From Listeria ivanovii subsp. ivanovii (GTDB lineage Bacteria; Bacillota; Bacilli; Lactobacillales; Listeriaceae): DNA of 64,000 bases. The notes under the pieces are model-generated. The model was not told where the DNA came from. It searched no databases and saw nothing but the letters and a program-made list of their open reading frames with translations. Shown one piece after another: positions 33,281 to 35,479 of this stretch. The translations under genes and the position numbers were made by a program. Location of the stretch: contig NZ_LT906478.1 in the NCBI RefSeq assembly GCF_900187025.1, positions 914,001-978,000 of the forward strand, given 5' to 3'. The stretch's first letter is position 1. Every line of letters begins with the position of its first letter.

Positions 33281-33847
33281 ATGAAATTAGTAGCATTATC
33301 AGGGTCTAACGTAGGTTCTAAAACAAGAACAGCGATGAATTATACCGTTGCAGAACTCAAAACAAAATACCCAGATATGGAAGTCATATTAATTGATCTT
33401 GCTGATTATAAAATAGATTTTAGTGATGGAAGAAATTATTTAGAATATCAAGGTGACACTGGTTTTGTAACCAAAAAGCTGATGGAGGCAGATGCGATTA
33501 TCATTGGAACCCCAATTTTTCAAGCTTCCATTCCAGGTTCACTCAAAAATATATTTGACCTGCTTCCAGTAAATGCATTTCGGAATAAAGTGGTGAGTAT
33601 GCTTGTGACAGCAGGATCCGCGAAACATTACCTTATTGCTGAATATGGATTAAAGCCCATTTTAGCATATATGAAGGCTCAAATTGTTCCGACGTATGTC
33701 TTCATTGAGGAAAAAGACTTTGTGAGAAAAGAAATTGTAGAAGATGATGTGCTATTTCGAATCGAGCGCTTAGTAGAAGATACCGTTCTTTTGACAAGTA
33801 CTTATACGCAATTAAGATTAGAACAAGAAGCTAAATATGATTTTTAG
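33281..33847 (+). CDS. NAD(P)H-dependent FMN reductase (SsuE-like)
   Basis: 188 residues. Flavodoxin-like fold with the FMN phosphate loop GSNVGSKTRTA at the start, ADAIIIGTPIFQASIPGSLKNIFDLLP (FMN ring) and a SsuE/MsuE-like C-terminus. It supplies reduced flavin to its partner monooxygenase, as SsuE does for SsuD. ATG 33281 follows ATAGGAGGGC. It is second in a two-gene operon with the monooxygenase. No other operon member is seen before the MucBP gene. Confidence 0.9.
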   Translation: MKLVALSGSNVGSKTRTAMNYTVAELKTKYPDMEVILIDLADYKIDFSDGRNYLEYQGDTGFVTKKLMEADAIIIGTPIFQASIPGSLKNIFDLLPVNAFRNKVVSMLVTAGSAKHYLIAEYGLKPILAYMKAQIVPTYVFIEEKDFVRKEIVEDDVLFRIERLVEDTVLLTSTYTQLRLEQEAKYDF

Positions 33848-34018
33848 TCTATTAAAGTAGTTTGGCGGGTAAGTGCTGAATTCCTTTGTTTTTTACAAAA
33901 AATTAGTTAAAAGTAAGAAGTTTAACACTTCGCAAAGTCAGGTATTATATTAATAGGCAAAAATTTACCAGTATAAATTTGATAGAGAAGGAACAATTTA
34001 AGAAAGGAGGGTAACCAT

Positions 34019-35479
34019 ATGAAAAAAAGAATTTTTCGTTACGTGTTTGTAAGTATGTTATTATTTACGGGTTTATTAGTGGGAAGTTCATCTGTTCATG
34101 CTGCTGAAATGGACTCTAGCACCATTGCGTATGATTATGTCGATGTGAATACATTAACCAAGGAACAAAAGGATAGTATTATAAAAGGGACTCCGAACGA
34201 AATACATAAAAATGATTACGAAACCTATCAATTTGTTTATCAAAAAAATTCTTCACAAGCAGCTACTAATTCAGTGGATAATCCATCTGGGAATAATCAA
34301 TTATTGAAAACAGGTGATTCAGGAACTAATATTTTTTTAATTATTCTTGGGCTTCTGCTCGTTGGAGGTGGCATTAGTCTGTTTGCTTGGAAAAGGGGGC
34401 GTGGCAAACAGTTTTTATTATTCTTGGTGGTGTTTGGGGGGAGTAGCATACTTGCTGGCTCAATTGTTCAAGCCGCAGAATCTAGTAGCTTAAAACCAGA
34501 AGAAAAAGTAGTTTCATCAAAAGGAGTCAAAGAAACAAAAAAACCAGAAAGTATCCCTGGCTACACTTATGTTGGATATCTTCATACAGTGAAAAATGAT
34601 AATCTACCTGCACCTATTCAAAAAGGAAAAGTTATCGTGAATTATCAAGATGAAAAAGGGACTTCTATAGCACCAAGTGAAACACTAGAAGGCGATATCG
34701 GTCAACCCTATCAAATTTTAGCAAAAGAAATTACTGGTTATGAAGAAAAAGAAGTGGAAGGAAATACTACTGGAACGTATATGAAAGAGACACAAACAGT
34801 AGTTTGCATTTATGAAAAACTGCCAATTGCAGCTGCTAATGTAATGGTCAATTATTTGGATGAAGACGGAAAGAAAATACATGATTCCCAAACAATTAGC
34901 GGTAATATAGGGGATAGTTATGATGCCTCCACACCTAGTTATCAATTAGAAATTGCTGGCTATACATTAGATAATGATAGGCTACCTAACAATGAAAAAG
35001 GCACGCTATCTGAGCAAACGCAAGAAGTGAATTATGTATACAGGAAAGAGTTGCAAGAGGTTACAATTACGATTAGGTTTGTTGATCGCGATGATAATCC
35101 GTTTGTACTAGATGATTTAACTACCTATAAAGATGGTTCGCTAGTTCCGCTTTATCCAAACTTAGATCAGTACCACATGTTGTTAGATTATAATCAGCAA
35201 GTATACAATCAAGGCGAGCAAGTACCTGATATTGTATTGGATAGCAAAGAAGGAGAAACGTATTCCTTACCAGAAAAAATGACATTTAGTATTTTAGATA
35301 ATCAAGGAAATCCAGTGGATTATGTGGCTTCACCAAATGCAAATAATAGTGTCAGTGGAATTAGGTATTGGCAAAACTATCGCAGTACTCCAGCTAATCG
35401 TGAAGGAACTCTAACTTCTGAGGATATAGTGGTTACTTATCAAATTCTTAGATATGGTATTCTTATTCCCGCACCATAA
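34019..35479 (+). CDS. Secreted MucBP-domain protein with an internal sorting-signal-like segment
   Basis: 486 residues from ATG 34019 after AGAAAGGAGGG. A signal peptide (1-29, SSVHAAE) starts a short N-terminal domain (30-94). Then LLKTGD (95-100), a hydrophobic stretch (104-124) and KRGRGK (125-130) copy the form of an LPXTG anchor. A second hydrophobic stretch (131-151) ends in VQAAE, like another signal peptide. Two MucBP repeats follow (about 203-266 and 272-341) and a beta-rich domain to the end, which has no sorting signal. It looks like two secreted proteins fused in one frame. MucBP domains often bind mucin or other glycans. Confidence 0.85.
   Translation: MKKRIFRYVFVSMLLFTGLLVGSSSVHAAEMDSSTIAYDYVDVNTLTKEQKDSIIKGTPNEIHKNDYETYQFVYQKNSSQAATNSVDNPSGNNQLLKTGDSGTNIFLIILGLLLVGGGISLFAWKRGRGKQFLLFLVVFGGSSILAGSIVQAAESSSLKPEEKVVSSKGVKETKKPESIPGYTYVGYLHTVKNDNLPAPIQKGKVIVNYQDEKGTSIAPSETLEGDIGQPYQILAKEITGYEEKEVEGNTTGTYMKETQTVVCIYEKLPIAAANVMVNYLDEDGKKIHDSQTISGNIGDSYDASTPSYQLEIAGYTLDNDRLPNNEKGTLSEQTQEVNYVYRKELQEVTITIRFVDRDDNPFVLDDLTTYKDGSLVPLYPNLDQYHMLLDYNQQVYNQGEQVPDIVLDSKEGETYSLPEKMTFSILDNQGNPVDYVASPNANNSVSGIRYWQNYRSTPANREGTLTSEDIVVTYQILRYGILIPAP

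Follow-up and report, generated by a model that had tools for sequence, protein, structure and literature searches.

An N-terminal module of the streptococcal IgA1/Zmp protease type, with a likely internal signal peptide, in a MucBP protein of Listeria ivanovii

This analysis concerns a single open reading frame (ORF) in a stretch of 64,000 nucleotides from Listeria ivanovii subsp. ivanovii (contig NZ_LT906478.1, positions 914,001 to 978,000), which is referred to as the window throughout. The ORF occupies positions 34019-35479 on the + strand, carries AGGAGG 8 bases 5' of its ATG and encodes a protein of 486 amino acids, in which a first signal peptide, a short ectodomain (residues 30-94, between the signal peptide and the motif LLKTGD) and two hydrophobic stretches, TM1 and TM2, joined by a basic loop, precede two MucBP repeats and a C-terminal domain. 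The N-terminal module was compared across 86 distinct modules, comprising 83 with a standard motif and three (FPKTGE, LPKTNE and LPKTAS) that were added by hand; the latter represent five sequences with a non-standard motif, three of them distinct, since identical stretches were counted once. At 60% identity the 86 modules form 36 clusters. The parts of the gene are as follows.

34005..34010, + strand: ribosome binding site AGGAGG, seen in the sequence
34019..34105, + strand: first signal peptide, residues 1-29, seen in the sequence; V26, A28 and A29 are invariant in an 11-row alignment (A2)
34106..34246, + strand: ectodomain 1 (the 'stub'), residues 30-76; predicted strands 33-42 and 67-76, predicted helix 48-52; Y74 in 86/86 and P59 in 85/86 modules
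34301..34318, + strand: degenerate sorting motif LLKTGD, residues 95-100, from the sequence and TIGR01167
34319..34390, + strand: TM1, residues ~101-124, presumably oriented out-to-in
34391..34408, + strand: basic loop KRGRGK, residues 125-130, assumed to be cytoplasmic
34409..34474, + strand: TM2, putative internal signal peptide, residues 131-152, with a predicted signal-peptidase cut after VQA152
34475..34597, + strand: segment 3' of the predicted cut, residues 153-193, with PxxIxGYxYVGY; G186 and Y187 in 86/86 modules; hhalign
34628..34816, + strand: MucBP domain 1, residues 204-266 (Pfam)
34838..35044, + strand: MucBP domain 2, residues 274-342 (Pfam)
35051..35476, + strand: C-terminal domain, residues 345-486, with a weak third MucBP-like match

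MucBP (PF06458, Pfam E 1.6e-38) is the only Pfam family over its cut-off in the 486-residue protein, an M26 peptidase domain is not matched, and the C-terminal domain reaches 18.3 bits against MucBP, below the cut-off of 23. No C-terminal anchor is seen in the protein, and none of the Pfam and NCBIfam families that exceed their cut-offs covers the stub (residues 30-76). A scan for promoter-like sequences returned 11 hits with 10.1 expected, which is the level of chance. Much of the original prediction, which had been made from the letters of this DNA, holds. Pfam and the sequence bear out two MucBP repeats followed by a C-terminal domain without visible anchor, and the plan of a sorting signal at residues 95-130 (LLKTGD, TM1, KRGRGK) is present, the LPXTG-type model TIGR01167 scoring 16.5 bits on the whole protein at a cut-off of 15.9; a complete LPXTG motif is not there, as the proline is missing. 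The second hydrophobic stretch (residues ~131-152), which ends in IVQA|AE, is likewise signal-peptide-like as proposed. What the prediction overlooked is that an N-terminal LPXTG module is known from streptococcal IgA1/Zmp proteases, and also that the regions flanking the hairpin of TM1 and TM2 may form one domain.

Relatives of the module and their payloads

A profile of the Listeria N-terminal regions matches related loci in L. cossartiae, L. farberi and L. marthii as well as named Enterococcus and Streptococcus sanguinis proteins. Across the order, 129 of 395 genomes contain a match; many of the weaker listed matches extend over the sorting signal only. With streptococcal rows included and at E ≤ 1e-8, matches are present in 159 of the 247 Streptococcus genomes and, in the family to which G522 belongs, in 14 of 105; the genus of G522 contains named Enterococcus records. 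The S. sanguinis protein (L113) has YSIRK, LPXTG anchor, G5 and M26 N-terminal domains and is, judged by these domains, an IgA1/Zmp-type protease.

The IgA1 protease and ZmpA-D (M26) share with the Listeria protein the same order of signal peptide, short ectodomain, motif, TM1, basic loop, TM2, AxA and PxxIxGYxYVGY, and profile homology extends across the whole module. They differ from it in that the Listeria payload is MucBP and not G5/M26, that the window protein has no YSIRK match and that the motif proline has been lost. Because LLKTGD lacks this proline, we class the Listeria gene by its sequence as a derived relative of the IgA1/Zmp N-terminal module and not as an 'N-terminal LPXTG protein'; an LPXTG motif near the N-terminus is absent from the window protein and present in the remote Listeria copies of G004 and G009. 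The N-terminal LPXTG of the streptococcal proteases is described in a review (PMC7939560), and three transmembrane segments are drawn for the N-terminal region in PMC2225412.

In Listeria and Enterococcus, a known module carries a different payload, MucBP. Among 26 proteins scanned, many of which are cut at the end of the available stretch, 12 have MucBP behind the anchor, eight G5 (one with M26, one with FIVAR), one M26 only and one Rib, while nothing is recognised in the remaining four. The Rib repeats occur in L179 from G376. The L. ivanovii genome has other MucBP proteins, which we take to be of the lmo0835/InlJ type; several of these, among them frames of 679, 453, 535, 533 and 428 amino acids, differ from the window protein by an ordinary C-terminal LPXTG-type signal. 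Likeness also exists to the small LPXTG proteins of the EF2685/EF0750 type (NF053819), likewise small secreted proteins with a sorting signal. The window protein scores 33.5 bits against this model as a whole and 35.2 bits with its first half, below the cut-off of 47, and the members over the cut-off differ in being small stand-alone ORFs beside genes for other exported proteins.

A homologue split into two complete genes, which had been suggested as something to look for, is not found among the matches listed; these include truncated, stop-bearing or frame-shifted copies. Separate small LPXTG genes that match the first half turned out to be either EF0750-type ORFs next to other exported-protein genes or truncated copies. 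L209 and L210 from Streptococcus are stand-alone first halves (140 and 112 amino acids as called) that end just past the basic loop and are either remnants or working small anchored proteins. In L207 (G352) a stop codon lies in the first ectodomain.

A likely internal signal peptide and decay of the sorting motif

A triplet of the type [AVSITLG]-x-A is found no more than two residues from the aligned end of TM2 in all 86 modules, whereas the same search at 14 other offsets finds it in 0 to 35 of them; at the aligned column itself, alanine is present in 75/86. Residue numbers were worked out for eight sequences only. In the four streptococcal ones (S. sanguinis L113 as well as L158, L161 and L178), with the first Met of the frame as residue 1, the predicted mature start is residue 154. 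The mature IgA1 protease of S. pneumoniae is given as residues 154-1963 (PMC7695701), so that the number predicted for these homologues equals the published start. That TM2 ends in a signal-peptidase-type site in every module, taken together with the predicted start at residue 154, makes it likely that TM2 is an internal signal peptide that is cut by signal peptidase.

The literature on IgA1 protease offers a different account, according to which the enzyme is said to be cut 56 residues after LPXTG via sortase recognition (PMC9637739); by our own count, the predicted cut in the streptococcal copies lies 53 residues past the G of the motif. Mature IgA1 protease is also said to be covalently linked to the surface by sortase A (PMC7695701). 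Sortase A cleaves its motif between T and G, and what it attaches is the portion preceding the cleavage site (PMC4010754); an enzyme located behind the motif can therefore not be sortase-linked. A signal-peptidase cut at the TM2 end fits the sequence better than the sortase account. A sorting signal placed N-terminal to its cargo is a puzzle, as sortase attaches only what precedes its cut, and a conserved internal signal peptide combined with a possible split domain would be a simple and testable answer for the streptococcal proteases as well as the Listeria and Enterococcus adhesins. Bacterial polyproteins in which signal peptidase cuts at an internal signal peptide exist, for example FbcH of Bradyrhizobium, an unrelated protein.

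The genome of the window has 37 matches over the LPXTG_anchor cut-off, and the window protein is the only one of these signals without proline and the only internal one; all 36 others contain proline and are followed by a stop codon. Proline is present in 70 of the 86 modules, and the 16 that lack it are 15 distinct Listeria copies, i.e., all but the remote ones in G004 and G009, plus one copy from G522. In seven of the 15 (LLKAGD, LVKAGD), including that of G016, the threonine is lost as well. The window contains one of the two sortase domains of the genome:

8397..8759, + strand: sortase domain (PF04203), ~25 kb from the gene, not assigned to SrtA or SrtB

The sortase half of the module has most likely decayed in the window protein and in the close Listeria copies. 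Because proline is lost in all 15 of the latter and threonine in seven, it is doubtful whether sortase still cuts in this clade. With their worn sortase motif and intact cut site, the Listeria copies offer a natural experiment in which the two steps can be told apart.

Two alternatives bear on these steps. Sortase may still cut LLKT|G and attach the stub to the wall, which is the assumption made for the LPXTG relatives; the 11-row alignment shows no variation at K97, G99 and D100, L95 is kept in at least 90%, and TIGR01167 still scores just above its cut-off. We nevertheless consider this improbable given the absence of proline in each of the distinct close Listeria copies and in one from the genus of G522, the additional loss of threonine and the retention of proline in every other signal of the genome. 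The protein could also be a stable two-pass membrane protein, in which the hairpin of TM1 and TM2 remains uncut and MucBP is exposed while tethered to the membrane. This would fit the two long hydrophobic stretches and the description of the L. monocytogenes homologue with two predicted transmembrane segments (PMC11414675). A stable hairpin would not, however, need TM2 to end in a signal-peptidase-type site, as it does in every module, and the homologous IgA1 protease of S. pneumoniae is said to start at residue 154 when mature, so that we regard an uncut hairpin, too, as improbable.

Hairpin flanks and possible surface retention

Only three positions, Y74, G186 and Y187, are invariant in all 86 modules, and they lie to either side of the hairpin and of the cut. 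Both flanks are modelled by AlphaFold with moderate-to-good confidence and resemble parts of the MucBP fold, and residues 153-193 match the middle of MucBP in hhalign; the rows labelled 'strep only' were chosen by locus number and include some from other families of the order. The invariant positions and the MucBP-like character of the flanks suggest a single domain that is split by the hairpin and could keep the payload attached to the stub after the cut. Direct coupling analysis was performed with 153 modules (Neff 56), which remained from 204 matches once these had been filtered by the GYxYVGY pattern and by length and duplicates had been discarded; for G186 and Y187, invariance is therefore quoted from the 86 modules only. 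Stub-payload pairs made up three of the top 30, nine of the top 60 and 16 of the top 100 couplings, 0.49-0.78 of expectation, and pairs within the stub were likewise not enriched (0.37-1.01). Foldseek, run with the module alone, returned nothing at E ≤ 0.001, a negative that applies to the families on the VIA list. Neither a split domain nor a signal-peptidase step in N-terminal LPXTG proteins is described in the excerpts of the papers listed, which do not cover the primary work on the IgA1 protease N-terminus.

As a whole, the evidence is probably best explained by one chain in which an N-terminal retention module of the IgA1/Zmp type is combined with a MucBP payload and which is internally cut and held at the surface. 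Sec would export the chain as a hairpin with both ends outside. Signal peptidase I would remove the first signal peptide and, as the conserved site strongly argues, would also cut at VQA152|A153 and free the MucBP part from the membrane hairpin. In the LPXTG relatives, sortase could link the short stub to the wall, as the IgA1 protease literature suggests; in the close Listeria clade, since the motif proline is lost, the stub would most likely stay in the membrane on TM1. The payload would probably be retained at the surface by non-covalent contact between stub residues 31-80 and payload residues 157-191, which in the models resemble pieces of a single MucBP-like domain with the hairpin inserted into it. 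Both halves would lie outside, as originally proposed, and the proposal of two products gains support as regards signal peptidase and loses ground as regards sortase.

A more specific version of this explanation is tentative, and we give it somewhat less than an even chance: the module may be a self-assembling latch, a MucBP-like domain that is split by a cleavable hairpin, the halves of which join non-covalently so that the bound stub displays an exchangeable payload, be it a MucBP adhesin, Rib repeats or a G5/M26 protease. The hairpin would be removed by signal peptidase, plus sortase where LPXTG is intact, and the Listeria clade would have converted a wall latch into a membrane latch. If true, the latch would explain how an N-terminal LPXTG can be needed by IgA1 protease even though the enzyme is on the wrong side of the sortase cut.

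It is also conceivable that the payload is cut and simply released, with nothing retaining it at the surface. The window protein has no anchor at its C-terminus, and a ZmpB appears in a table of S. gordonii secretome proteins (PMC4297671). Simple release appears rather unlikely in view of the three invariant positions on both sides of the cut and the description of IgA1 protease as associated with the cell wall, with release occurring in late stationary phase (PMC7939560). That the frame is an accidental fusion of two genes, or a frame or assembly error, has next to no probability; we found nothing in its favour, and a single open frame in many independent genomes rules it out. Relatives at 55-97% identity retain the plan within a single open frame, and it is therefore beyond chance; the one-off fusion of two genes considered in the original prediction is not supported.

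Conservation and genomic setting in Listeria

The first half is matched in 16 of 25 Listeria genomes (E ≤ 0.001), and in 13 of the 25 one match spans it from residue 1 or 2 to 152, in open frames of 491-518 codons. In G005 there is one longer copy with extra MucBP repeats; three copies are present in G024, a tandem pair (L073, 4986-9104) and a third elsewhere (L077). The remote copy in G004 (28% identity) has the motif LPKTGD, and in G009 (L072) the N-terminal part is in another frame, with the change of frame within the first ectodomain. In a simple Nei-Gojobori count for eight pairs, which is not a formal test of selection, dN was below dS in 8/8 pairs for the stub (residues 30-76), for TM1 and for the loop plus TM2, the two values for the latter differing only slightly in the closest pair (0.09 and 0.10). 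Since dN lies below dS in all three regions, this suggests that the first half is also under selection.

The gene almost certainly belongs to the same family as lmo0576 / LMON_0576 of L. monocytogenes, because the published lmo0576 peptide VTYNYINI occurs in the G016 copy (L076), where it lies within the first strand of the stub, in the region equivalent to 34106-34246 of the window. The two differ in chromosomal locus and in the motif, LLKAGD in the G016 copy versus LLKTGD. In the excerpted literature lmo0576 is uncharacterised apart from expression and a T-cell epitope, VTYNYINI (PMC11414675). The L. monocytogenes copy is the source of this published epitope, and the part bearing it, the stub, would be the one that stays with the cell.

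G000, G014 and G020 share one locus of the gene; G016, G018, G005 and, with the tandem pair, G024 share a different one. The former (window 33281-35479) lies between ORFs that we take to encode an FMN-reductase-like protein (before the gene) and a NagA-like protein (after it); at the latter, the gene follows ORFs that are presumably GntR-like and GH1-like, and the G016 copy is a few genes away from an ORF that we take for p60. For the FMN-reductase-like protein, G016 yields no more than a 35% match over 91 residues, and G024 lacks a match. In G020 (L074, 5720-5792 and 7342-7629), the gene is also preceded by a stretch that nearly duplicates the beginning of the small membrane protein gene located downstream, an arrangement that looks as if the gene had been inserted with a duplication.
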